A stretch of DNA of 64,000 nt from Agaricus subrufescens (taxonomy: Eukaryota > Basidiomycota > Agaricomycetes > Agaricales > Agaricaceae): the NCBI GenBank assembly GCA_029945375.1, contig CM057061.1:2852001-2916000 (forward strand). Reading direction: 5' to 3'. This document shows, in pieces, positions 20,438 through 52,259 of the stretch; the stretch's first letter is position 1; every line of letters begins with the position of its first letter. The position numbers were made by a program, and so were the translations under genes. Below the pieces are notes generated by a model. It did not search any database. It was not told where the DNA came from and worked only from the letters and a program-made list of their open reading frames with translations.

Positions 20438-23400
20438 CTAGCTCACCTTCATTAGTGGAATTGCCTGAAAAATCTTGGTCCCGGAACCATCTGTATAATC
20501 AGTACCAGCTAAAGCAAAGTGGCCAAGTGTCTGATCAAGGCGCAACAATAAAGGTGGAAGAGACTTTTCTTGAAAAAGTTGGCCAGGGACAAAGGAAAAT
20601 TCCTCTGAGCGTAAGAAGGGCCATGGGATTGATGCGCCTTGTACCTCCGGTGGCAAGATGGCGGGTCTATATGGCAACACAAGAAGAAAGGTGTCTGTGA
20701 CCCAGCCAACTTTCCTGACCTTCCGTTTATGAATGAATATTTCGCTAATTGAGCCTACACCCCATTGGAAGGGATGATTCGGTCCTATTGAAGTGAACAT
20801 TACTTGACTGTCTCCAGTAGAGTGTTTAGCAGTCCTGTAAGTCACATTATTAGAAGCAGTCCTCTGCCGAATTGCTGTTTGATCCAATTTGACAACTCCA
20901 CGCCCATCATGGGTTGCCACCCAGTTCTCTAACAGGGTGCGAACCGCACCTTGAATCTTGATTTCTTCATCAGCGCGTGATTCCTTTACTCTACCATCAA
21001 ATATATCCTCGCTAAGAAGGGTTCCTCGGATGCGGTGGTTGAAGGATTGATCATATGCCGCAACAAGAGGGTGAAGGCTTTCTGGAAGATGGTGTACGTC
21101 AATGAGCACACGTAGATTTTGTAACATATTGAATTTTCGGAACATAGTTTTTTCCATTTGTCCTATGAAAATTTGAGTTCTACTATCAGATTTCCTACAA
21201 CTGGACATACCAATGATTTGGTTTGTGAGTGTCTGCTGAAGAAGGTAATTGAACCGCTCAAATGCAAAACACCTCCACCCATGCGTAGGCCCAAATCGCC
21301 GTAAGAAATCACCAAAGTGTAGAGAAATATGCTGATAGGGTGTGAGCTCGATGCCAGGGTATAATTCCCATAGTGTAGTGAGGTATTTGTGCATGTGTTT
21401 CTCATAAAGGAGGATGTCTTCTTCGCATATTGTCCGCTGTGAAGCAACCTTGACAGCACTAACCAAATAGAGAAAATTTTCTAGGATTTTGGCTTGACGA
21501 CTCTCTGGAGGACTGGTGCCCCATAGTCTGATGAGGGTGATAGGGAGATTGATGGTAAAGAAAGAACGCCACTGGTCTGCATGTAGCTTGCCTCCCTTTG
21601 CTTGGCCTGGATAGGCTGGACCTTTGGAAACCCAGGTTGGCAAAGAAATACGCCCCATATCGTCGACCAGCTTTGGAATAGTTTTTTTCCCTAGGACACA
21701 GGTTTTCACCCCTTTTCGAGCTTTTGACGCCTCAATCTTTGCTTGGTTGACAGGATGACAGGTTGGATCTACATCCATTCTGTCTTCTCTCTGCGCTTGC
21801 TCCGCCCTCTTGTAAGCCTTTGGCGCCTTGGCCTGTAAACCTGTCTTGAATGCTGTAAGTCCGCTGCCAATCATAAACTGGACCAAGATTACCTGTGGGA
21901 GCTGATATATGTCTGTATCAGCCATCCTCATCACTTCGAGTTCCCTCTCCAGATTGTCTATTGAATATTCGGAGGGACTTTCTTCTGTAGTAATGACAGA
22001 AGCGTCTTTCTGTGCTAGTGACCCTGACCGTAACTGCTTTACCGCCTTAGATGTTATAACTTTTCCTGCATTGTCAATGATGCCATCTGCTGTTCGCTTT
22101 TCCTTGAATCAGAGAATGAAGGACATCTAAGCTCCAAACATACCCATTCTTGAATTTTCACAATCAGTTGTGGCTTTGTCAAACTTGCCACATTTGTGTT
22201 CGGTTTCATAGTTTTTAAAACCTCAATCAATCTATCCTTCCTCATTTGCATCCATCTTGATTTCGGAGCGGTCTTCCACGCGTGTTCAATCTCGCATGCA
22301 ATGGAAGGCTGAGGCAGATTTGGTGCTTCATCCACGCACATTGAATTGGAAAGAGAGTCACCCTGATTACAAAATCAGTTACAAAGAGTAGAATCCTTGG
22401 TAGGCATACCTGTGGTGCTATTATTTGTATATCTGGAGATGTTTCAGGAACGGGATCCGGCAATTCTGAGCTTGGTGCTGCATCTTCTGAAAACTGTTGA
22501 CGTTGATACTGTGATAATAGTTCAGCTGCTATCTGGTCCAAAAATTCAAGCCCTACCTGCTTTAAAGTTGAGAGAAGAATTTGTTTTGTGCCACCGAAGT
22601 GAAGTCCAAGTTTCGCACACAAATGGGCTAGTACATGCCACTTCTCGTGGTGAAGCTTCTTGAAGTTTCCATCTGCTAGGGCCTTCAAAGCATTGCTGCT
22701 TTCTGATTCCGTAGGAACTTCCATCAACTTCCGGTATGTTGGACCATCACCATCCTCCATTCCAGCATCCATTCCCCATATTTTGACTGCGTGACGATGG
22801 AAAAGACCAAGATAAAAGCAGTGCATAGAATCAATGACCGTATAAGAGCAAGGATCCCAATAAGGGAGGCGCAACAGCTGCGACCACCGCAAGCCATATT
22901 TATCAAAAATATCATCCTGCTCCCCTTTGGTTTGAGCGGCCTTCCATTCCTCTGCTTTCTGAATATGCTGGTGCTTTGTTCGCTTCTCCCAGGAGTGAGA
23001 ATCGAAGTTTGCGATGTCATTAGTCTTGATAAAGCAGTGGGAACAAAAATGGCGGGATCTTGCACTTCCAAAGCCCGCCATTTTCTTTGACGCAACAAGA
23101 TCTGCTACCAAGGGAATTATTGAAACAAAAACCCTTCTTCCCACAGGATATTTTGGCGTTCGTCGGAGATACAGCCCTACGTCCCAGAGCTCCAAAAGGC
23201 TATCAACAAGGGGCTCTAGGATGTTATTGATCTGTAGGACGGAAGGTTCCTGGGGGCCTGGTATTACACCGACAAGGAATATGTTTTCCATGCAATTACG
23301 GATGTTGCGGGGAAGATTTAGACACGTCATGTATATTGCGCCTATGCTGACGTGTTTTCCTGACTGTTTGTTTCCGTAGGGATTGAATCCATCCATGTTG

Positions 23401-24470
23401 ATGCTGAAAGCCAGCCGCCCATCTGTTCCTTTATCTTGAAAAAAACTTTTGCCATTGCGTTTGAACTCCCTGAGAGCTGGAGCGTCCCAAATGTCGGTCA
23501 TCTTCTCCGGTGTGGAAGATCCCAGGAAATCATGATCCAGAACCTCCTCTAGCTGGGGGCGAGCATAGAGCCGGGCTAACCAGTCCTTGAACTCTTGCAT
23601 GGAGTATTCACGAATGGGTTTTCCATTTCGATGTCGCAGATTTGCATGACATTCAGACCCTCCAGGAAACTCTGCAAAGTTGCATAATGTTGGGCAAGCT
23701 TCATGTTTGTAGAGCCTGAAGCATCTAGGACAGCAGATATAAGATCTGGCTTGAGACTCGATTTTCAACCGGGCTACCAGCGTTTCAACAGTAGCGGGTA
23801 TGGCCGCAGGTAAGGGTGAGGGAGAGTTACCACTCCTATCTTGATTTCTACCCAGTAGACTGAATGCCGCAAGATAGAAACCACACTGGGCTTGAGAAAC
23901 CCCAGTCGCCAGGTAAAGACATAGGACAGCCACATAGGCTACAGCAGCCCAGCTTTCCATGTTCAAGAATGGAGTCACCATGTAAATTCCTTAACAATAA
24001 TAAGCTGAGAGTTTAAGATGGTAAGTTGCGCAGTTCAGCTTACCAGGATCAACACTGTTGATTTCATTAGAGATAGTTCTCTGTCTCTCCCACTCTTTAT
24101 ATTTGACTTCTCGCAGGTGAGCCAATTCAGCTTGAAGGGCAGAGAAAAGGTTTTCAACCAACGGTATTATTTCTCTATCATTGGCGTATTGGACCGTGTA
24201 GCGGCATGTTAAGTCAATGCAAGACTGCAACCAACTCTCATGTGATAGAGCCAAGGCATTTCCAGGTGGCCCTTCAACAAGTTTAAGGCTTTCGACTGTG
24301 ACAAGGGGGTCCGTGAGGGAACAAGCGGCCGGAGGGACTTCAAAACAAAATGACAATGACTTGAGTTTGTCATTGAGGGTGGAAACATTGCGTCGGGACA
24401 AGCGCTGCTCTGTGTCAGTGATCCATTGGAAGACAGAAGATCGGCTGAGTTTGTCAGAAGACAAACTCAT
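20438..24470 (-). CDS. Plavaka/Tnp2-type CACTA transposase, 4 exons, apparently intact
   Basis: Minus-strand exons 24470-24044, 23989-22410, 22362-22144 and 22102-20438 join over GT..AG introns in one frame and encode about 1296 residues. The protein moves a CACTA-superfamily DNA transposon by a DDE-type reaction in the nucleus. The N terminus has paired cysteines (CCPRCFRLYKHEACPTLCNF), a probable zinc-binding segment. The transposase core shows NMDGFNPYGN (first Asp), VIDSMHCFYLGLFH (second Asp) and CFAFERFNYLLQ (Glu), the pattern of Tnp2-family proteins. The C-terminal third is helical with a probable DNA-binding tail. Neither stop nor frameshift is seen. I could not find convincing CACT..AGTG ends around it, so the element itself may be eroded although the gene is open. 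It differs strongly from the second transposase at 38164-41375. Confidence 0.85.
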
Positions 24471-36330: not shown

Positions 36331-36880
36331 CTACAACACCGTGTAACCCCTCAATCTCAAACTGTACGTAGCCTCTTTTCTAACCTCCTTCGCCAATTTT
36401 ATGAGCAAAACTCGCAGCATCCGCCAGTTCCTCAACAGGAACATGTGAAGCTCCCTACAATTCAGCCACAGCATCATACGCATGTTCCACGGTATCGAGT
36501 CGTTATGAAGTTGTCCGCAAATGTGTAGGTCGACTAGGAAAACTTGATTCATATGTAGAGTTCTGATTGAAGGCGCTTGTTGGCTGATGGCCCGGACGGC
36601 ACTGTGAACCAGGTGACTCTTTGATTCGTCACCGCTCTTCTGGTGACTGATGGACGAGTGATATTCCAGGAAGAATGTAGTCATCAGCCCCTAGGAGAGG
36701 TAGAACAAGAGTCTAATCAGGCCGATATCGTGGAGGCCGAGGAGGTGCTACTAATGAAGTACTTGAACGAGGTAGCGCTTTAGTGGACTCGACCAGTTCC
36801 AGACTCGGAGCCCTGGGTTTCTTGGCCACATGCAATTTTTGATCCTGATTAACAGAGACTACACTAGCTTGATGTAGGCA
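36331..36880 (-). pseudogene. Degraded duplicate of the 3' end of the Rif1 gene
   Basis: Compared on the same strand, 36338-36872 aligns with 54343-55020. Shared strings include TGATTGAAGGCGCTTGTTGG, GGTCGACTAGG.AAAC.TGATTCATATG, AGTACTTGAACG and TTTCTTGGCCACAT. One internal deletion of about 170 bases (equivalent to about 54600-54770) and many substitutions and frameshifts are present, so no usable reading frame remains. Homology continues on the left through the end of the DUF6914-like gene (36095-36240 against 54125-54240), which shows a segmental copy rather than a retroposed one. Confidence 0.8.
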
Positions 36881-37762: not shown

Positions 37763-37765
37763 GAA
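37763..37765 (+). repeat. Left copy of the 3-bp target duplication GAA
   Basis: GAA directly before the CACTGTGAGCC terminus at 37766; repeated at 50201-50203 directly after the other terminus. Three bases is the expected CACTA target-site length. Confidence 0.8.
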
Positions 37766-37776
37766 CACTGTGAGCC
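37766..37776 (+). repeat. Left terminal inverted repeat of the CACTA element
   Basis: CACTGTGAGCC; pairs with the inverse of 50190-50200 with one mismatch (G/A at position 9). Followed by several AAGTGCGCG-like words (37791-37915), a possible subterminal binding array. Confidence 0.75.
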
Positions 37777-38163: not shown

Positions 38164-41100
38164 TCAATCTAGCATTGAGGAAGAAATCCTGCTTCGATCT
38201 ACGATGCTCCAGCGATTTCCGTCTTGTACTCGTCCTATGAGGCGCTGCACAGTGCTCAAATCAACGACCTCAACTGCTCCCAGAGTAGTGTAGTAAAACA
38301 GATTGCCTTCAAGCTTTACTTTGGCAGCTTGGACTATGGCGTAGATAACGGTTTGCGGTGAAGGCATGTTGAGTTGAGGAATTGGTGGCAGTTCGAGAAC
38401 AATGACGCGTCGGAGCTGGCCAAAAAAAGCCCTCTTCACATACTTGGGGGTTCGATTCCTTTGGCGAGCATACCTGTCGACGAATTGAACATACTACCAA
38501 AGCAGAATCAACAAAGTGACAATATGAAGGTAGCCACCACTTACCTTGATGAACGAAGCATCCCTGGAATCTTCACTTCTCTGAACCATCTCGCTGGCCA
38601 CAATAGTGTCAGTCCCACCAGGGCAAGCAACGCGCCCATAATGGGCAAGGGGTTCCATAAGAGGAAGAGCGTTTTGCACAATAACCTTTGCAGTGTCAAA
38701 TCGTGTTGCAAGAGCAGCGTAAAACTTGTCGCGGAGGTAAGCAGGGAGGGGCTCGCGGCGCAAAGGTGGGCACAGTTTGTACTCTGGGTCTGGTAAATCA
38801 GGTGAGTCTTAGCTATTAGATAATCTTAGTAACGCACAAGAGTCGGATTGGAGAACTGATAATTGCCTGTGCGCTCTAGGGTTCAAGTCCAACTCTGAAT
38901 GCAAAGAGAACTTGAGCTTAATTTGGTCAAGCTGTGCTGCAGCGGTAACAAAGGAGCTGATAGAAGCGTATGGATGCCGGCGACTTTGGATAGAAGGGAG
39001 TAGCATGTTGCAGTGGCGCTCCATCGGAAAGGCCCAATAGGACCAAACAGGGCCCGCAACTCGGATGCCCCAAGCAATGTGAAGTAGTGCATGTATTGTT
39101 AAGGGGCACGCTGAGATTCGACTTGGCTGATGCAAAAAATAGAGCCTATGAATATATTCAATTCCTACTCAACTAAATTCGCGAGAAATTTTACCTTTCG
39201 TAGTCTACTACCCATGACTTAAAGCCACCGTCAATTTGATTGAGCGACTCTTCAGTGATCTCCAGCTCAAGGCACATCCTGATCAACTGCACAAGCCTCA
39301 TGAAGTGAGTGTAGTATATTGGTCGCTTGAATCTGTTGCGAAGCACAATAGGTGCAATGAATAGCGTCCAACTTGAATACATTTCGGCAGTCATCTGGCT
39401 TTGCTGCAAAGCAATGTTGGGAAGTGGGGCACCAAATGCTGAAGGGATGGTTGCCCTAGAAGACGCAGTTATGAGTCCTATCTCTTTCCAAGCATCAGGC
39501 TGAATGACGTAGCCTTGGTTCTGATGGTCTAGATCTTTGAAGCTTCCTGTCCAAAATAAAATGAGGTTCGGAATCAAATTCTCCCATATTAGATGCATAA
39601 AGTCGAATGGAAAAGACGCAGGAAAGTGCATAGATGATATGGTACTGAGGATGGGAAGGCCTTTAATACCGTATTCTTTTGAAAGGCGTTCTGATGCAGC
39701 GCGATTAGAAGCATTCTGCACTTCCTGTGCCTGCGCCATCAATTCGCTGTGCGTGCGGATGGGAAGTTGTGAAGGGTCATAATTGAAGTGATCAGGCTGG
39801 GCGATCCGCTCTCGCTGCAAAGGGACGTAATAGGTGCGCGAAGTGCTGCTGCGAATAGCAACAATCTTGCAGGTACGGCATGGGCTAATGCCATTTGATC
39901 CTTTCATGCGCATAATCATAGCCATGGCAGGAATATCGCCAAAAGCCAGGATTAGGTAGGCATGAAGCGCAAAAGAAGCCTTTGCTACTGGGTCAAAGGC
40001 TGGTACTCCAGCTTCGAGTTCAGTGAGCTCCTGAATAAGCGGCCAGAGAAAGGAGTCCATATCACAGGGCTTTTTAGGGCCTGGAACCGTGCCTACATTG
40101 ATGCAGTATTTCTTTTGGAAGCGAACATCAGGTGGAAGATTATAATTGAAGAGAATAATGGGCCAGCACGTTGCATTTCGCCTCTTGAATGGAGCAAAAC
40201 CGTCTGTTGAAAGGCCAAGGGCGATGTCGCGAGGATCAGAGAAGTAGAAAAATGGGTTGTTGCTGCTTGCGGGAACAATTTTATCAAGGAGCGAGCGATA
40301 ATGCGAGCCATCAAAGACATCTGCCACCACTCCGTCTTGGTGCTCAAAGTTGGCTCGATACCGCATCTTCTCTGCATGCTGACGGTTAGCGACAAGAGCC
40401 TGCAAGCGGGGGATTAAGGGAATGTAGCTGAATGCCTTTCGAGGCTTGTCCCTGCCGCTCCACCTTTTCTCGTGGCATCTCGGGCACTCAGTGAGATCTG
40501 CATATGGCCCCACAAAGCAGACACAGCTATTTGGGCAGCAGCTATACTGCACAGGCTGAAAGCCTGACAGGTATCGAACGCGCTTCTTGGTCATTTTAAG
40601 GGAATCATGGTGGACGCTTGGGAAGGCACACTCTAGCTTGGCAAAAGCCCGCTCTGTTATGTGCTCTTCTGTTTTGAAAGCAAACTTGCGGAGCAGGCTG
40701 AGGTCTGCTTCGTCGAGGTTGGCCTCTAATTGGTGCTGAGAGAAGCATTTAGCGCAGAAAAAAGAGTCGCACCTGCTGCCAATAACGGATTTGCGTTATC
40801 GAGGCCCCAGGTTGGGGCAGTAGCAGGCAATTCCCTGCCACCGAAATTGCTGCTGCCACCTTGATCTTCATCGCTGCTGTGTTCGCTCCTGTCATCACTT
40901 TCACTGGAATTGCCCCTCTCGCTTGGGCACTCTTCACCTTCGCCATCCTGCTCAGCCTCACTTCCACTACTCGAGTCTTCAGCTGGCACTTCAGAAACCC
41001 TGCTCCCCCAGCGGCGTTCAAGCATCTTGCTAAGCTTTTCAGCAGTTTGACTACGCTGCGCAGCTGCACCTGTGCTCTGATCGGCAAAGGGGAGTGCCTC

Positions 41101-41375
41101 CCAGAAGTCATCGGCAAGATTGGATTCGAATTCGCCAAGGCTTCTTTTCTCTGGCTGCCCTTCGGCACTAGCTGGAGGCGACCACTGGCCCTTGTTACTG
41201 ATCGTGCTGCCAGCATTTGACTGCACCAGTGAAAATTGCTCTATGGCGGCAGCAGCAATGCTAGTTGACGTTCTCCCAGCAAGGTGCGCCCTCCGCGTAC
41301 TATATGTTACGCGCCGACCACAGCCACAGGTGCATTTGACTTTGTACTTTCGTTGAATAGATTTTTTGGGCACCA
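38164..41375 (-). CDS. Plavaka-type CACTA transposase of the 12.4-kb element
   Basis: Minus-strand exons are 41375-40773, 40725-39195, 39145-about 38700 onward to 38542, and 38493-38164, roughly 930 residues. The N terminus (MVPKKSIQRKYKVKCTCGCG) has a CxCGCG cysteine motif followed by an acidic Ser-rich linker. Then come LSGFQPVQYSCCPNSCVCFV, the DDE core with STDGFAPF (Asp), FPFDFMHLIWENL (Asp) and WAFPMERHCNML (Glu), and a C-terminal segment KYVQFVDRYARQRNRTPKYV and VQRLIGRVQD. The order matches Plavaka transposases. In exon 3 an in-frame TAA at 38809-38811 separates LLRLSNS from DSPDLPDPEYKLCPP. I found no intron that removes it with good sites, so the gene may be recently inactivated. 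It is divergently arranged with the dioxygenase-like gene. Confidence 0.85.
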
Positions 41376-43631
41376 TGAGGGGAAGGGGGATGCAGTAGGG
41401 GAGAGAGAAGGGGAGAGGAGCGGTAGAGGGGGAGCGGCAGGTGCAGCACAGTGGCAGTGCAGCGCGCGCACAAGTTCCGCAGGCAGCACGAGGGCCAGGA
41501 GGTAACTTGCAGTTTAGAAAGTGCAGCTGCAGGCGGCTACCAATTAGATAGGCCACCGATCTTGCAAGGGCAGTAAAAATTGTGCTCACCGAGAACAGAC
41601 TTGCCGCAAAGCAACTAGCACTTGCACTCTTGCCAGCGGATGTCTATTGCAATAGAAAGTGAGTACTTGCCGGGGCGGGGCGCAGCAGCAAAGAGCCATG
41701 AAGGTTGGAAGGAGGGGCAACAGCTCCCCTGGTAAACACAAGGCGCAATCGCACTGAAAGGCAGGCAGCAGCCAGGCTCAATAAACCCTCAGGATTTTTG
41801 CTCAAAGCCAATGAATTGATTCGTCTACGTGCAAAGTACGCAAATACATCACCAGACCTGGTATCTACTCCAAGGCCTTCAAGTTCCAGAAAAAGCCGGG
41901 CCGTGCTTGCCAATGCCACCGCTCACAGCCAGAGCCTTCAAAGTGGTGGCTGCGAGCCAGAAGTAGAGGGAGCAGCGGGCCTCCTCTTCGAGTTGCAGGG
42001 GGGGGCTTGGGGTGCGCAAGGTGGCAGCTGCGAGGCAGAGGCGCAGTGGGCTTCCTGCCGCTGGCCGCCTCCGCACTGCAAGGGGGGCTGGGGGCGCGCG
42101 GAATAGTGGCCGCGAGGGGGGCTGGGGTTGCGCAGGGCAGCGGTCGCGAGGCAGAGGCACGAGGGGGGCTGGGGGTGCGCAGGGCAGCGGTCGCGAGGAG
42201 GGCCAGGAGCGTGCGGGCGGTGGCCGCGAGGCAGGGGCGCGAGGGGGGCTGGGGGCAGCAGCAGCCGCGAGGCAGAGGCGCGGGGAGTGGCGCGCTCCTG
42301 TTGGTGGCCGCACTCGCGCTGCAAGGGGGGCCAGGGGTGCAGGGCAGCAGTCGCGAGGCAGAGGCGCGGGGGGGCTGGGGGCGCGCAGGGCAGCGGGGCA
42401 GCGGTCGCAAGGCAGAGGCGGGAGGGGGCGGCGGCCTCCTTGCTGCCGGTCGTCTTCGCACCAGAGGGGGCTGCTCGGCAATTCGGGGGGCTAAAGAGGG
42501 AGCGCCAGGAGGGAGAGGGAGAGCGCCAGGGGGGCGAAGGGGGGGGAGGGGAGCGCGGGGCAGCCAGAGCGCCGCGGGGCCGGCCAAGCCAGGACTGCGC
42601 GGAGGGGGCTCTGGTGGGCCTGCGGCGCTGGGCAGCAGCTGGGGACTTCGAATTGTCGAAGTCCCTCATCACGTGCCCACCGCGCGCCATCCCGCCTTGA
42701 CCTCCGCCTCGCTGCCTCTGCTCCCACCACCACCCCCTCTGCCCTTGCCACCACCCTTGCTGCCCTTGCTGCCACCATCACTGCCCTCGCCATCGCCATC
42801 GTCGCCCGCCCGCCCTTGCTGCCCCGCTGCCCCCTGCACTTGCCGCCCTGCATTCGCTACCCCCTCTGCCCTTGCCACCGCTCGCCCTTGCCACCGCCAT
42901 CGCTGCCATCGCTGCCCTCTCGCTCCCCCTCTGCATCCGCTGCCGCCCCCTCTGCCCTTGCCACTGCCCCCTCTGCCCTTGCCACTGCCCCCTCTGCCCT
43001 TGCCGCTGCCCTCTCTGCCCTTGCCGCCGCCATCGCTGCCATCGCTGCCATCGCTGCCCTCTCGCTCCCCCTCTGCATCCGCTGCCGCCCTTGCTGCCCT
43101 TGCTGCCCCTTCTGCACTTGCTGCCGCCCCCCTGCATCCGCTGCTGCCCCCTCTGCACTTGCTACCACCCCCTCTGCCCTCGCCACCGCCCCCGCTGCTT
43201 TCTTGCCCCCTCTGCACCCGCTGCCGCCCTCTCTGCCCTCGCAGCCGCCCTCGCAGCCATCGCTGCCATCGCTGCCATCAACCCCGCCCTCTCGCGCTCC
43301 CTCTCTCTGCGCTCGCAGCTCCGGCCCTCTCCAGGCTCTCCCCCTGCAGCTGCCTCCAGGGGACCTTCGCGGGCTCTCAAGGTTGCCACTGCTCCCGCTC
43401 CTCAGGCCCTCCCTCCTCTCTGCACTCGCAACCGCTTCCGCGCACTCTAGGCCTCCCACCTCTCTGCGCTCGCAGCCGCCCCCGTGCTCTCCAGGCTATC
43501 CGCCCCCTCTATCCACCCACAGCCCCCTCCCTGCTGCGCCTCTGCATTTGCTGCCCCCTCCGCGTTCTCTATCTCCCCCGAGTTTACTGCTGCCTCTGCG
43601 CTTGCCGCTGAGTTCTCATCTTGTGCTCGTT
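41376..43631. repeat. Strand-asymmetric low-complexity region between divergent element genes
   Basis: From about 42000 to 42570 the plus strand is extremely G-rich with units such as GGGGGGCTGGGGGCGCGCAG and CGGTCGCGAGGCAGAGGCGC. From about 42690 to 43550 it flips to C-rich units (CCCTCTGCCCTTGCCACTGC, CATCGCTGCCATCGCTGCC). The two halves are roughly complementary in composition. Long open frames (up to 534 codons) exist on both strands, but they are Gly/Arg/Ala or Pro/Leu/Ser strings with no domain, as the composition predicts. The region lies between the start of the transposase (minus) and the start of the dioxygenase-like gene (plus), so it may contain both promoters. Confidence 0.65.
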
Positions 43632-45330
43632 TATGGGCAAGCAGGCACGAAAGAAGGGGGATCGCCCCAAGCAAAATCAAATTGAATTGTTGTACTGCAT
43701 CCTGCAAGATGATGCAGACTTTTGCGAGGCTGTGTGAGCGTGCTTGATGACTGGTGACCAGGTTGCTGTGGCTTTTCATGCCTTCAAGAATGGCTGGCCT
43801 GCAGAATCACCTCCTCACTATGCTCAGGTAAGCCTGCTCCACTTCGTGCTCGCACATTCTCACTTCAGTGGGGCTGCAGTTCTTCCGCAGCATGATGGCC
43901 TGGTACAACAGCAGTAGCATCTGGCCAACGCTCAAGCCGCACTTCAGGCAGCTTCTGTCTGACAGGAGGGTGCACCTGCACGCTATTCGATCGCGAAAAC
44001 GAAATGCTGTTGCTTTAGGCCGACTTAATCCAAGTGCATTTGACAAGCAACAATTCTTAAGAGCTCTTCCTTTGCATGCGTGCGCCCCATTTCCTGCTGG
44101 AAAGGTATACCCAGCCCCATATCTCTTTATTTCAGAATCGCAAGAGATTTTCAGCAGGAACACGTCATTCATCTTCAGAACTCAGGTATCAGACCGCCGC
44201 ATATCCCAGAAATACGTGCAGTCTCTTGAAGTTGCGAAGTTAAAGCACGATGTCAAAGAAGCTGAGAGCGGCTTATTTGCACAAGGGGATGAACTTGTCC
44301 TCGTTGTGATACGCGATGCCTGCCCTGCCCCTCAGCTTGTCAGCTTCATTGATGACGCCATCTGCAAAGTGGTATCGACACGAACCAGCATCCGCGTGCG
44401 TGCTTCACATATTCAATTATCAGATCTCTAACGTTAAAGTTTGAAATGCAGAAGGAGGATCCAGGACACCTCTCGCAAATGGGAATGTCAGCTGGCTCGC
44501 GCAGTGCTGGCTGCTTGGATTGGGTGAGAAATGTTCGGGTGCGCCAGCGACACACTGCTGAGCACTTGGAAAATGACTGCACTGCCAGCTCTGCATTTGC
44601 GATTCTGTGGAATCTTTGCAGAACGATTCTCCTGGATGAAATCATTAGCGACATGGAAACTTTTATGGAGTCTATTGGGCCAGATATGCGAATGGATGGC
44701 CGTGGGTCAATGCCAGTGGACGAGGCTGGTAAGGGCCAATATTTCGTTTCAGTAGAAGGCGAGCAATGGAACTTTGCAGCAGCTAATCTAGCTCCCCCTG
44801 CTGGCGTCATGGCATCCAACTATGCCCGGCAAGTGCCTTACCTTGTGCGCAATCTTACCCTTCAATTTTCTAATCTGCGCTGCAGCCATGTTCATCGCGA
44901 AAACCAGCCCCACAAATGGGCTGCTGCTTTTACGACATCAAGGCACTTTGACCCAAGCGTAGCTTCTGTAGATGCTGGTGGCCACTTTTTTCTTGCGTCT
45001 TATGGAATAGGCGTCAGAGCCAGCCCAAACACCCTTATCGCGTGGAGGCCTGCTGACTGGCACGCTACCAGCCTACCTCTCCTTAATCAAGTTAATTCTG
45101 CAAGTGAATACCATCAGCAGGGCCTCGCATTTGTAACCTCAAACCGCTTGCCAGAAGCTATTCGCAAATACCGCCAAAAGTTAATTTCAGAGGAAGAAAG
45201 GGATTGTCTTATTTTTGAATCTCATGGGGATGACAATGTTGGCGAGGAAGAAAAAGATGTTGTTAAATTTGCCTCATCACTGCGACGGTCAGCTCGGCTG
45301 GCTGCAAAAGCTCAGCAGTCTGTAGAGTAA
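43632..45330 (+). CDS. Divergent double-stranded beta-helix (2OG/Fe dioxygenase-like) protein of the CACTA element
   Basis: The likely start is ATG 43632 (MGKQARKKGDRPKQNQIELL). Early exon joins (43730-43870) are uncertain. Later parts are clear: FPAGKVYPAPYLFISESQEI, FIFRTQVSDRRISQKYVQSL, then from 44449 KEDPGHLSQMGMSAGSRSAG to the stop at 45330. After splicing a GC..AG intron (44829-44885) the core reads NYARHVHRENQPHKWAAAFT, DAGGHFFLASYGIGVRASPN, TLIAWRPADWHATSLP and QQGLAFVTSNRL. This parallels the TET/JBP core at 13.4 kb: HRD against HRE, the GGH-hydrophobic strand, and the distal histidine in WHATS against WHSN. The arginine that binds 2-oxoglutarate is not obvious (QQG instead of SRAS). 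I infer an H-x-E...H dioxygenase-like fold; activity is unproven. I recall similar proteins in Agaricomycetes. Confidence 0.65.
44829..44885 (+). other. GC-AG intron in the dioxygenase-like gene
   Basis: Donor CCCG|GCAAGTG and acceptor GCGCTGCAG|C. The length of 57 is divisible by three, so the unspliced frame is also open. Removing it joins NYAR directly to HVHRENQPHKW, giving the compact motif expected for the family. Confidence 0.65.
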
Positions 45331-45614: not shown

Positions 45615-46543
45615 TCAGATCGGATTAGCAGCAGAGTTGAGCATTCCTACCTTGTTGCGCTTCTGCTCATTTCCTTCTTCTTTTCTCGCAGCTGGTGCTA
45701 CAGCCTCATCAGGCATTACAACTGCATCTACACCTCGCTTTCTCTTCAATATCTTGGGCTCAGCAAGCTCGATCTTTGCAGCTATGTTTTCGTCAGCAGG
45801 TCCTTGGATCACTTCAATGCACTGAGCTTCTTCTTTAACCTCTTCATTCTTTATGCTGCATTGGGCTGCGCTATTATCTATGGCAAGTCAGCAAGGTTTT
45901 AAATCACTGAATAACAACTGACCTTGCTGAGATACGCCAAAAACCCAATCACCCTGACTCCCTTCACCATATCCGGGGTCTTGGCTACCATCATCATATC
46001 CTACGCTCTGACTGCCATCGCCATATCCGGGGTCTTGGCTACCATCATCATATCCTACGCTCTGACTGCCATCGCCATATCCAGGGTCTTGGCTGCCATC
46101 GTCATATCCTACGCCCTGGCTGCCACCACCATATCCAGGGTCTTGGCTGCCATCGTCATATCCTATGCCCTGGCTGCCATCTCCGCATCCAGGATCTTGG
46201 CTGCCGTCGCCATATTCTGCGCCCTGGCTGCTACTGCTATATCCAGTACCTTGACTAGCTTCGCTGCCTTCGGTATCTCGAGATTCGCCAACTTTTGCAA
46301 TGCATTAGTAAGTCGCAGAAATCGTAAAATGCAGAAATCCAACTAACCAGTTTGGGATGCACCAGAGCTAATGTAGCAAGTTGGCTTCCGGCCGCGGCCT
46401 TCCTTCCATGCAACGTATTCTTCATGTGTTTCAAAGTCAGGAGTTGCACTTCGGCTTTTCTGAGAAGAGCCACAAGATGCGAAGGTGGAGTAGTCGCCAT
46501 CGCTAGCAACAAGGTCGCTTTGAGGTGAACTCATGGAACACAT
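45615..46543 (-). CDS. Gly/Asp/Ser repeat protein of the CACTA element
   Basis: Minus-strand ATG at 46543 (MCSMSSPQSDLVASDGDYST). Exon 1 ends at 46348 before GTTAGT. Exon 2 starts after a TACTAAT..AAAAG site near 46300 (VGESRDTEGSEASQGTGYSS) and carries about six copies of a 36-60-base unit giving GYDDGSQDPGYGDGSQSV. It then ends with DWVFGVSQQ before an intron. The last exon holds EVIQGPADENIAAKIELAEP, a KRKRG basic patch and the stop at 45615. The protein is about 250 residues, highly acidic and probably disordered, with a basic C terminus. No known domain. Its place between the dioxygenase-like gene and the second repeat protein marks it as cargo or an accessory of the transposon. Confidence 0.55.
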
Positions 46544-47041: not shown

Positions 47042-49925
47042 ATGCCCCCTAAGCGAAAGAGCACTCAAGGTTCTGCTGCTTCTGCTTCATGCACTGCCTC
47101 TGGTACAACCAGTCCTGATCCTGCGATAATGCTGAAAGTGAAAAGGCCTGTTTATTTCGTTTCTCTGCTGCCGAAGTCAAAACTTAATTCATTTTTATCA
47201 GGTCAAAGAAAGCAAGTGCTGATTCTTCTACTATCTCAAGCAAGCCTGCTTCTGCTGCTACTTCTACAAATCAATCTTGTGCGCCGAGGACAAGAAGGTT
47301 TGCTGCTTATCTTTTCACTTTGTAAATCTCTAACTGTTGCATTACAGCAAAACCTGTTCAGCTTCTATGCAGTCTCTAGTAAACTCGGTTGTAGTTACTG
47401 CTACTGTGGCAAGAAAGACTTGGGCAAAGGACTCCCAGTAAGTGTTTACCATTAATTGCCTGTACATTTGCTAATGTTTCTTGCGTGCAGGAATGGTGAA
47501 AAGCCTGAGCCTGCTGCAGCTGCGCAAAAAGTGAAGCCAAAAAGGTTTGCAAAGTATTTTTTCTTCACCGCAAACAATGTTAATGCCTTGTGAACCAGGA
47601 AAGGAACTGCTCCTATTAACTCTGGCGATGCTGCTGCCCCAACACTTGACCCAATTTCCACTGCGCAGGTAGCTCCAGCTAGGCAGTTAGTTTATTCTCT
47701 CATTTTTCATTTTCCATTTTTTTTTCTGATGCGCACATTGAAGAAAAAGAGCTGCTACAAGCTCCTCGGGCATGCCTGAGGAGCCTGCTGCTAGTTTGGA
47801 CGGTCTGGCTCCTCCTGCAAAGAAATTGAAATCCAAGAAGTCTGGCGCTAGTGATTTCCCTGCTGCCTCTCCTGCTGGTAGAGTAACGCCAACTAGAAGT
47901 CAGCACAAGTCAACCTCTGCTACTAAAGGGCTGAGAGCCAACGCAAGCACAGCCAACGTGGCAGCAGTTAATGCCAATGCAAATGCAGCCAGCACGAAAG
48001 CAGTCAATGCCAACACGAATGCAGCCAACGCGAAAGCAGTTAATGCCAACGCGAAAGCAGCTAACGTGAAAGCAGTTAATGCCAATGCGAAAGCAGCTAA
48101 CGCGAAAGCAGTTAATGCCAACGCAAAAGCAGTTAATGCCGACGTGAAAGCAGCTAATGCGAAAGCAGTTAATGCCAACGTGAAAGCAGCCAACACAAAA
48201 GCAGCCAACGCGAAAGCAGCCAATGCGAAAGCAGTTAATGCCAACGTGAAAGCAGCCAACACAAAAGCAGCCAACGCGAAAGCAGCCAATGCAAAAGCAG
48301 CCAATGCAAAAGCAGCCAATGCAAAAGCAGCCAATGCAAAAGCAGCCAATGCAAAAGCAGTTAATGCCAATGCAAAAGCAGCCAGCGCAAAGGCAGTCAA
48401 CGCGAATGCGAAAGCAGCCAATGCAAAAGCAGCCAGCGCAAAGGCAGTTGGCACAAATGCGAAGGCCATCAGTGCAAATGTGAAGGCAGTCAGTGCAAGC
48501 ACAAAGGCAGCCAACGCAAAGACAGCAAATGCAAAGGCAAGTCACACCTAAGTTTTCTTTTTCTATTTGCACTGAAAAGCTTGCATCTAAGGCCTCCTCA
48601 TTGTCTGGGAGTAGCATCTCACTGGCCTCAATGCGAGAGCAAAAGAACAAGCCTGAAGCCTTGTCTCTAGTCCCTCAGGAGCTACTTGACGAAATAGCTG
48701 ATCTCAGAGCAAAACTTGCGCAAAGCGAAGGTCAGTAACACTCAACTGCAGTTTTATACTGCTGATTTTGGCTCTTGCAGCATCCAAAGATAGGGACGCA
48801 AAAACTGAAGCTGCTCAACCAGCTGCGGAGAGTGATTCGCTGATTCCACCACCAAAAGTACGGGGCTACAATTTGCAGAGAGCCATGAGACTAGAACACG
48901 ATAGGGCTCTATATGTTCAGTGCAGGGTAAATAACCATATTTGATTGTATCGCACCAGTGCTAGAATTACCAGCTCCTTTTAGGCGGCTGTTAAATCCTG
49001 CATGGCAAAGTCAGACATAACAAGTATAGATTGGCGACAGCAAGATGCTGGCATCGTTGCTCAAATATGCATTTTAGTAAGTGCAGTATTACTAGCTGCG
49101 TATTTTCTAACGCTTGCTTAGGCAAAAGAACTTGAACCTCAACTTTGCCGATATCAAAGAAGCTGGGCTACGATAGCCATTATCCGGGGAACATCTAGAA
49201 ATAAGCGTAACTATAGAAACAAGAAACACACAGGATACATTGCTCCTTCAAGGCGCAAGGAAGGCGATGGTAAAAGAAGTGAAGGTGCAAAGAGTACAGC
49301 TAGTAGCATAGATGAATGCGGTAATGCAAGTGAAGATGGCCACATAAGTGAAGACGACTGCGCGAGCGAAGACGGCCACATAAGTGAAGGCGGCTATGCA
49401 AGCGAAGATGGCTGCGCAAATGAAGACGGCTGCGCAAATGAAGACGGCTGCGCAAATGAAGACGGCTATGCGAGTGAAGACGGCTGCGCGAATGAAGGTG
49501 GCTATGCGAGTGAAGATGGCCATGCAGGTGAGGACGGTAATGCAAGTGAAGGCGACAACGCAAGTGAAGATGGCAACGCAGGTGGCAGCGATGGAGGCAA
49601 TAGTGGCAGCGAACGCGATGATGGTGACAGCAATGGCAGCAAATGCGATGATGGTGAAGGCAATGGCAGCGAATGCGATGATGGTGAGGGCAATGGCAGC
49701 GATGGCAATGGCAGTGGTGCTAGTGGCGACAGCGATGCAGGCGATGATGGTAAGGCTGATGGTGAGAGCAATAGTCTTGCAGGAGATGAAGCCGATTCCG
49801 ATGGTAATGGTGGGGGTATAGATGAAGAGCAGCTCAAACTTCACCGAGAGTCGCTGAAGCGACCACTCACCATTAGAAAGGGAAAACGTGGCGTAAAACA
49901 GAGGAACAAAAGGCAGATTCAATAG
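47042..49925 (+). CDS. Ala/Asn/Lys- and Asp/Glu/Gly-repeat protein of the CACTA element, about 9 exons
   Basis: The ATG at 47042 opens MPPKRKSTQGSAASASCTAS. Short exons follow (KTCSASMQSLVNSVVVTATV, then EKPEPAAAAQKVKPKR). The exon from about 47750 leads into about 600 bases of AANAK/AVNANAK pentapeptide repeats (47960-48540). After LLDEIADLRAKLAQSEG comes a conserved block: RGYNLQRAMRLEHDRALYVQ, CMAKSDITSIDWRQQDAGIV and LCRYQRSWATIAIIRGTSRN. The C terminus has acidic repeats (ASEDGHISEDD, CANEDGCANEDG) and a basic end (RKGKRGVKQRNKRQIQ). The 'RAM.LE...' and 'RYQRSWATIAI' block resembles C-terminal parts of transposon-borne hypothetical proteins in Agaricomycetes. The early junctions (47130-47190) are uncertain. 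Confidence 0.6.
47960..48540 (+). repeat. 15/21-base coding tandem repeat (AANAK / AVNANAK)
   Basis: Dozens of copies of GCAGCCAACGCGAAA-like 15-mers, some extended to GCAGTTAATGCCAACGCGAAA 21-mers. A run of near-identical units at about 48285-48360 suggests recent slippage. The reverse strand is also open because of the composition. Confidence 0.85.
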
Positions 49926-50189: not shown

Positions 50190-50200
50190 GGTTCACAGTG
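50190..50200 (-). repeat. Right terminal inverted repeat of the CACTA element
   Basis: GGTTCACAGTG on the plus strand (CACTGTGAACC inverted), directly followed by GAA (50201-50203), which repeats 37763-37765. Confidence 0.75.
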
Positions 50201-52259
50201 GAACATTGGATAATGATTGTCTTCGCAGAGAGTATAAGAAGCCTTGCCGCATTATCGAGCCGTTGTCTGTATCCTTCTATCCGGAGTGAGTCCTTTTCAA
50301 TCGTTTTGAAATCATTATGAACGGTTTGCACGGCATTAGATCTGAGCTTCCTCCAAATTGGCAACAATACGTCCACCCAGAGGGCTTGCCATACTTTGTT
50401 TCATTTTCCTGTGGTGGTGGTTCAAAGGTGACGGCGCGTCAACTGCTAAACTATGGTAACTCTGCTGACAAAAAAGTCGAACAGTGGAGAATCATAACAG
50501 AAGAGTGGATGTATGATCCTGCCATCTGCACGTTAATCGAAGGCTTCAGCAAGCAAATACAAGACGTGGTCTCTAAACTCGAATTAACCATAATGCCAGG
50601 GAGCGACCTTTTTCTTGGGCTGTGTCGGAAACAAGGAAACTTGATGGAAAACAAAGCTGGTCGCAAATCGTGCAACTATTACTTTGTATACCACCCCAAC
50701 CGGTGCATTTACTGGCTAGAAAAGTTTAGGCTCAAACGATCAACCTCAAAAATTCTGAATAAGATGTGGGGAGACTTGTCTTGGTACCAGACACGTATGT
50801 CGCTCATGCTTCACTTTTTTTTTTTTGCCTCAGTCCTGACTATGGAGTAGAATTATGCCTTGAGGCCAAATACTGGTCTGTCACTTGTTATCTACGCCAT
50901 CTGCTCCATGATGACCCCTGTTCAGGACACATTGGGACCACTTTCCAAATCTCTACAGAGCCACTCCTGAGATAAATGACTATGTTATCGATACCATCAT
51001 GGGTGTGATGGCAGGTGAGTTTCTGGCCAACTGATCATGCCAGTTTGACCGAAAGACTCCGCAGACGTCGTGTCTGCTCCACGTAACTCAAGTGCTAACT
51101 TCACCTATGAAGAACTATATAAAATGCTGGACCTAGTGAAAATGGAAAGAAGTAGATAAGGTCTACCCCTGACAAGAAATGTGTATTGATTTATTTATAG
51201 ATTGCAATGCGGCAAGCTGGCATATAGGTATTGCATATTTTCAATTAACGCTTCGTATTTAACTAAATATTGGTGAAGGCCGCTCTATGATGCATCTGAG
51301 TATATACCATCCATAAGTTTCGAAGGCTGCCTAACGCTGAACTCTTGCTTAGCTGCAGATCGGCTGAGAAACTATTATGGTGTCTGGGGGACCAGATTGG
51401 ATAGGACTCAATCTGTCGTCGAATTCGAAGACATACCGCATTCAATGGCCGTGGACATCTTCTCTCCTTTCTTTTTCTTCATTCCGCATGCACAGTTGGA
51501 ACGATTCAAATTTTTGGCTGTTGACCGATATATTATGTCACAGCAATGGGAAAACCTCTTGAACGATGTTCAAGAAGAATGGAACCAGACATCAGTAATT
51601 GTGTGTTTTCTTTGTCTCCCACTATTACAAGTTTTAACTCCGGCGATGTTAGGCAACCATTACCTTAGCTGCAGACTGCGCGTTTCTAGCAATTCCCATG
51701 TTTCAGGACCCAGCTCTAGCTACGCGTAGTTCCCCTGAACAGATTGCTAGCTACCTGTCAATCGTGACCAGTATTTTTGGGCTTATCCTTTCTCTCACTT
51801 TTTATCGACACCACAAAACAAGAAGGACCAGCGCACCATCTCAACTTGTAAGGGTGTACACAGAGCCGCTTTTGTCTTCTAATGCTTTGTCTAGTTTGCA
51901 TACATCTCAAATACCGAAGAAGAGGGTGTTAATCTCAAACATTTGGAGAATCTACTTCTCGTATGGAGCTTGCCACATGCGCTCGTAATGTGGTCGTAAG
52001 ATTTCATATTTTGATTGAGATTTCGAGAAGGCTCATGTATTCATTCTCAAGGGTCGTTACATTTTCTCTGGCCTTCTTCTTCATGTGTATTTTTGGAACA
52101 CTTACCGTCACAAAGGTCGTCATTAGTATCGCTGCATCGCTCCTCGGGATTTTAACTGTGTATTGCATTGTCAAATTTGGCAGTGGCAGGAATCTCCTTC
52201 GAATTTGGCTTCAGCGCATTCACCGGAGCATCAGACAACTATTTAAATCCAGCAATTAA

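Follow-up and report, generated by a model that had tools for sequence, protein, structure and literature searches.

In Agaricus bisporus, transposons of four lineages carry TET genes (Kojima 2025, PMC12730594). One kind of carried protein, the PE-type TET/JBP protein, is described there as very distantly related and has the motif HxE as its hallmark. The main text of that paper records the PE type among Agaricomycetes from Agaricus, Laccaria and Gymnopus, and for the Boletales, Polyporales and Russulales it records only Kyakuja TET transposons. CG methylation in A. bisporus is nearly confined to transposons, and the TET genes inside transposons have been proposed to relieve methylation silencing of their carrier (Kojima 2025, PMC12730594). 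Here we describe a gene of this kind in a 64-kb stretch of the Agaricus subrufescens genome (contig C5, 2852001-2916000; genome size 44.65 Mb), referred to below as the window. The gene occupies positions 43633-45330 on the + strand and lies inside a transposon of the CACTA/EnSpm group.

The gene belongs to the already described PE type, as it has the PE-type features that were examined. It is likely that it encodes a PE-type TET/JBP dioxygenase that a CACTA/EnSpm transposon carries as cargo, and whose activity would be the oxidation of 5-methylcytosine in DNA, acting against silencing. This reading draws its direct support from the element ends, the position of the gene between them, the predicted fold of the protein, the conservation of its residues and the selection observed in its paralogues. 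An earlier sequence-only reading of the window had pointed to an intron-containing, dioxygenase-like gene at this place, head to head with a CACTA transposase, and both the gene and the divergent transposase on the minus strand are present. It had also presented the locus as a poorly described system, a view superseded by the account of PE-type proteins and their HxE hallmark in Kojima 2025 (PMC12730594).

The carrier element and its principal parts are as follows.

37763..37765, + strand: left target site duplication, GAA
37766..50200, no strand: whole CACTA/EnSpm element, 12,435 bp, from its termini and target site duplication
37766..37776, + strand: left terminal inverted repeat, CACTGTGAGCC
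38164..41376, - strand: tnp2 transposase gene (PF02992), the end at 38164 being approximate
47042..49925, + strand: partner gene with internal repeats, core at about 48780-49260
50190..50200, - strand: right terminal inverted repeat, reading GGTTCACAGTG on the + strand
50201..50203, + strand: right target site duplication, GAA

The two 11-bp termini, CACTGTGAGCC and GGTTCACAGTG, match at 10/11 positions, are of the CACTG...CAGTG type and are bordered by the 3-bp target site duplication (TSD) GAA. When both flanks were shuffled, 0/1000 shuffles gave a pair that fitted the terminus of the sibling elements described below (at most one mismatch) together with a 3-bp TSD; the pattern for this test was picked after the element ends were known. 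The transposase gene has an N-terminal exon starting from the ATG at 41376, a main exon at 39191-40795 and C-terminal exons reaching to about 38164. The main exon matches PF02992 (Transposase_21/tnp2) at E 2.3e-26, its sole Pfam match at E values up to 1. Further copies of the gene in the genome are 64-73% identical at the DNA level, and similar open frames occur in L039. Because the transposase is of the PF02992 kind, the termini are CACTG...CAGTG and the duplication is 3 bp long, the carrier is an EnSpm/CACTA element. The TET-like gene is situated between its two TSD-flanked ends.

Plavaka, the carrier named by the sequence-only reading, was rejected on the PF02992 transposase, the CACTG termini and the genome search for PF18759 (Plavaka), which listed 135 matches and placed none of them in the window (123/153 candidates scored). 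A more distant left end at 36600 (CACTGTGAACC) was also considered and rejected, since it is flanked by CGG instead of GAA and the siblings place the left end near the 3' end of the transposase gene. This second CACTGTGAACC at 36600-36610 matches the right end at 11/11 positions, lies 1.17 kb beyond the left end and has no TSD; it may be what is left of an older end.

The four-exon model that fits the relatives best gives the TET-like gene the following parts.

43633..43827, + strand: exon 1, N-terminal part, PE-type
43880..44395, + strand: exon 2, PE-type
44452..44828, + strand: exon 3, PE-type
44829..44885, + strand: intron 3, GC-AG, 57 nt, placed from the family alignment
44886..45330, + strand: exon 4, with HxE, GGHF, TLIAW, the distal His and Q-x-G-L-A-F-V-T-S-x-R

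Intron 3 was called because the family alignment shows an insert immediately ahead of HxE, absent from most homologues. It has the donor GCAAGT and no in-frame stop, and if left unspliced it adds 19 residues at that point. In a structural model of the unspliced exon, pLDDT falls below 50 at residues 131-142, which are within the insert. The paralogues on contigs C7, C3 and C13 have an interruption at this position as well, and the one on C22 is uninterrupted. The earlier identification of the gene was sound, and its reading frame had run through this intron.

Homologues of the protein were identified by a protein search. Among the matches listed (7996 candidates scored) 33 homologues were found, with E values from 3.2e-100 to 1.3e-13, and a profile search added 16 (P0034-P0049). 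All named homologues come from mushroom-forming fungi, for example Agaricus bisporus, Macrolepiota, Leucocoprinus, Suillus, Paxillus, Trametes and Rhodofomes. Boletales and Polyporales are represented among them by homologues from Suillus, Paxillus, Trametes, Rhodofomes and Gelatoporia. The closest homologues among the matches listed are A. bisporus proteins, such as P0003 (51% identity, covering 66% of the query). A tree built from 31 selected rows puts the window copy in one group (10 rows, support 100/97) together with A. bisporus, Macrolepiota and three paralogues from its own genome; the paralogues C1, C7 and C22 are interleaved among the A. bisporus and Macrolepiota rows and C3 falls outside. 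The A. bisporus rows are assumed to be the same as the published PE-type sequences.

Two alignments were used to examine conserved residues. Alignment A contains the query and the 33 homologues, and its counts are over rows with a letter at the site; alignment B has 35 rows, made up of the window exon plus 34 homologues out of the 49. The motifs HxE (HRE in exon 4 of the window protein), GGHF, TLIAW and WH, which had been picked out earlier from the window alone, are conserved across the query and the 33 homologues. In alignment A the HxE His is found in 32/32 rows, the Glu in 30/31, the distal His in 32/32 and an Arg 28 residues farther on in 32/32. The corresponding counts in alignment B are 34/35, 32/35, 34/35 and 34/34. 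The acidic residue is Glu, as had been noted.

The window protein matched 0 Pfam families, and thus neither Tet_JBP nor 2OG-FeII_Oxy_6; a match to either helps recognition but does not define the PE type. Likewise none of the 33 homologues has a TET-type Pfam domain, while one has two unrelated domains. PF20515 matched weakly in 4/34 rows; a search with it gave no match in the A. subrufescens genome or in the control genomes and is uninformative. A sequence-profile search of the PDB yielded a single chance match (M protein, E 0.85).

The AlphaFold2 model of the A. bisporus homologue P0001 has pLDDT 86.5 and pTM 0.82, and with it the 25 best PDB matches in Foldseek were all TET-family chains (CcTet 2.3e-9, CMD1 3.6e-7, NgTET1 5.1e-7, TET2 7.4e-6). 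By VIA the same model gave Z 18.7 for TET2 (root-mean-square deviation 3.9, 267 residues aligned), 16.6 for NgTET1 (4.6, 238), 16.4 for CMD1 (3.9, 285) and 15.6 for CcTet (3.9, 252). The next family after the TETs was represented by PHD2, with Z 11.7 (4.0, 183). A model of the window's own exons 3-4 (pLDDT 82.1, pTM 0.76) had its best Z values with NgTET1 (10.1; 3.5, 173), TET2 (8.8; 4.0, 187) and CMD1 (8.7; 5.0, 196). The protein is thus predicted to combine an N-terminal helical region with a double-stranded beta-helix of the TET kind, the support being weaker from the window's own exons. A structure prediction and a profile-profile search had both been proposed in the sequence-only reading as checks. 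The former gave the TET-like fold, and with the element ends it supports the suggestion of an element-encoded, TET/JBP-like enzyme that would modify DNA. The latter, done with hhalign against canonical TETs, gave nothing significant.

The genome contains six TET-like loci, named here by contig. Between the paralogues C1:5970206-5971653 and C7:2979764-2981226, dS is 0.60 and dN 0.068 over 457 codons, a ratio (dN/dS) of 0.11, and therefore at least the C1/C7 line has been under purifying selection during its multiplication. The near-identical pair C3/C13 gave a dN/dS of 0.28, from just 12 changes over 239 codons, and dS was saturated for the window copy against both C22 and C1.

Three sibling elements in the same genome, at C6:3052535-3064770 (TSD CTA), C9:328686-341163 (TSD TAG) and C36:145601-160029 (no TSD), all carry matching termini, tnp2 and the partner gene. 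No TET-like match was found in them, either in the genome search or in the parts inspected, the middle of C36 lying outside those parts. Because these siblings have the termini, tnp2 and partner gene and no TET-like gene, the gene in the window is best interpreted as cargo inserted between tnp2 and the partner gene. The core of the partner gene has 10 matches outside the window in the genome search, 7/10 of which have a tnp2 match no more than 13 kb away, and the partner gene is therefore a frequent member of this tnp2 element group. Two further tnp2 relatives, at C1:436-446 kb and C2:452-462 kb, are 96% identical copies whose match starts exactly at CACTGTGAGAC; their right end was looked for and not found. 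In the C9 sibling a fragment of a casein kinase I gene (L052:6635-7207; E 3e-71 to 3sv0) lies between tnp2 and the partner gene, the same place that the TET-like gene occupies in the window element. These elements may pick up cargo at this place.

If the protein acts as proposed, its iron would be held by the two HxE residues, His and Glu, together with the distal His; the conservation suggests that these ligands are His320, Glu322 and His376 (464-aa query numbering). The enzyme would then oxidize 5-methylcytosine, the most likely base, and this oxidation would weaken the methylation-based silencing of the carrier and aid its transposition. Cytosine-methyltransferase matches (PF00145) are present in four places in the host genome.

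Three sets of observations weigh against this reading. Exon 1 of the window copy, and of this copy only, has an in-frame TGA at 43735-43737, where relatives have a sense codon. A 30-nt intron that would remove it was ruled out, as it is too short and relatives have coding sequence through the region. Since the stop lies in a stretch that is coding in relatives, the window copy is probably impaired, unless a later ATG starts translation. Two homologues, P0002 (A. bisporus Agabi119p4_6991) and P0039 (Tricholoma matsutake, partial), have HxK in place of HxE and are possibly dead members of the family. Lastly, the low-scoring hhalign alignment puts a QPH histidine on the canonical HxD histidine. 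The HxE register is preferred, because the QPH register leaves no acidic partner afterwards, and the choice is not settled.

The exon 1 stop and the two Lys homologues, one of which (P0002) is the sole exception at Glu in alignment A, are what favors the view, also raised in the sequence-only reading, of a TET relative that has lost catalysis and serves the element only by binding DNA or chromatin. Elsewhere in the family HxE and the distal His are near-invariant, and the C1 and C7 paralogues, whose low dN/dS is given above, both keep them; we regard a dead relative as very unlikely. A host gene that merely adjoins a transposase is highly improbable. It would accord with the paralogues C1, C7 and C22, which have no PF02992 or PF18759 match within 10 kb. 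Against it stand the position of the window gene between two element ends with a TSD and the published presence of other such genes in transposons (PMC12730594). In addition, 3/6 TET-like loci are within 10 kb of a PF02992 or PF18759 match, versus 7% expected for random points; this comparison used 161 PF02992/PF18759 places with KDZ left out, and C3 and C13, as near copies, are not independent.

The remaining alternative concerns the chemistry, namely that PE-type proteins are TET-like enzymes which do not use 2-oxoglutarate (2OG) in the normal way and instead take another co-substrate, such as a relative of ascorbate, to make a larger modified base as CMD1 does. The 2OG arginine was reported as not evident when the window was first read, and the family bears this out. 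Between the distal His and the invariant Arg 28 residues on there is no conserved Arg column: in alignment B any one column has Arg in at most 13/35 rows, and there is no Arg in this stretch of the window protein. Gln is conserved where the last strand begins (31/35 rows), and the adjacent column has Arg in 13/35. CcTet has an essential 2OG arginine, Arg385, 9 residues past its distal His376 (PMC11040006), and CMD1, which has no usable one, takes vitamin C (PMC7854593). Among the TET rows CMD1 also has the highest identity to the model, 15% over 285 residues. HxE enzymes that use 2OG exist, which counts against this alternative, and 2OG could be bound by the invariant Arg that follows the last strand or by the one in NYxR. 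CMD1 aligns an Arg there that it leaves unused, hence the sequence alone is not decisive. With no conserved Arg where TETs bind 2OG, another co-substrate for the PE-type family is possible, which is not enough to claim it, and we consider this alternative unlikely. A bolder form is more doubtful still: the whole PE-type clade, which several transposon superfamilies would have carried through the mushroom-forming fungi, would have lost the 2OG arginine, would use another co-substrate (for example a fungal relative of ascorbate) and would tag transposon DNA as self by putting a new hypermodified cytosine on it, rather than merely erasing 5-methylcytosine. The preferred reading is still a 5-methylcytosine-oxidizing enzyme carried as cargo.

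Two other features of the element were delimited.

42000..43600, no strand: GC-rich spacer of low complexity, separating tnp2 from the divergent TET-like gene
45615..46535, - strand: open frames with GYDDGSQDPGYG repeats, a gene inside the element

The spacer is 68-81% GC in 200-base steps and has many short repeats; on the + strand it is G-rich to about 42600 and C-rich beyond. The gene at 45615-46535 and the partner gene are both repeat-rich, with GYDDGSQDPGYG and ANAKA repeats and TRF units that include 54, 36 and 15 nt. An Rfam search of the element gave no match. The window also contains a second, more distant PF02992 transposase at 22938-23489 (C5:2874938-2875489, - strand; E 1.2e-12, 582-aa frame), which belongs to another element.

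Elsewhere in the genome, a KDZ match lies about 17 kb from the C7 TET-like locus. The gene upstream of the C1 paralogue (C1:5974541-5975032; L026:4041-4532, - strand) is a dispersed repeat found in 8 places. It has no Pfam match at E values up to 0.1 and is perhaps a transposase absent from Pfam. A canonical Tet_JBP gene is present in three identical copies, at C2:3846008-3846565 (L054:1509-2066) and on C7 and C14, which suggests a recent duplication. Its protein matches CcTet at E 1.3e-12, and no KDZ match is listed within 20 kb of the copies.

A delimited TET-carrying CACTA element with TET-free siblings in one genome makes the help that the cargo would give against methylation directly testable. 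Should the PE-type clade indeed avoid 2OG, it would follow CMD1 as the second TET relative whose chemistry differs, this one mobile, and mushrooms would be a place to seek an undescribed DNA base.

Compared with known systems, the locus is closest to the published PE-type TET/JBP genes (PMC12730594). Like them it has HxE for HxD and lies inside a DNA transposon, as they do inside EnSpm and others, and the fold predicted here is TET-like. It differs in its host genome, in the exon 1 stop and in that the ends of this copy are now delimited. The published range of the type is Agaricus, Laccaria and Gymnopus, to which the present homologues add genera of Boletales and Polyporales. This distribution and the lack of a conserved 2OG arginine go beyond the main text of PMC12730594, in which the words "arginine" and "Arg" have 0 occurrences. 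CcTet of Coprinopsis cinerea (PMC11040006) is a relative of the AG type, has HxD and is about 9-13% identical to the PE-type model. CMD1 of Chlamydomonas (PMC7854593) likewise has HxD, with vitamin C as co-substrate and 5gmC as product, whereas the window protein has HxE. As for the carriers, Plavaka (PF18759) is of the related CMCT clade and carries TET genes in A. bisporus, but PlavakaB has the termini CATCA..TGATG (PMC12730594) and no listed PF18759 match falls in the window. The element shares its CACTG termini, 3-bp TSD and tnp2 transposase (PF02992) with EnSpm/CACTA, and is set apart from its three siblings in the same genome by the TET-like gene that it carries.
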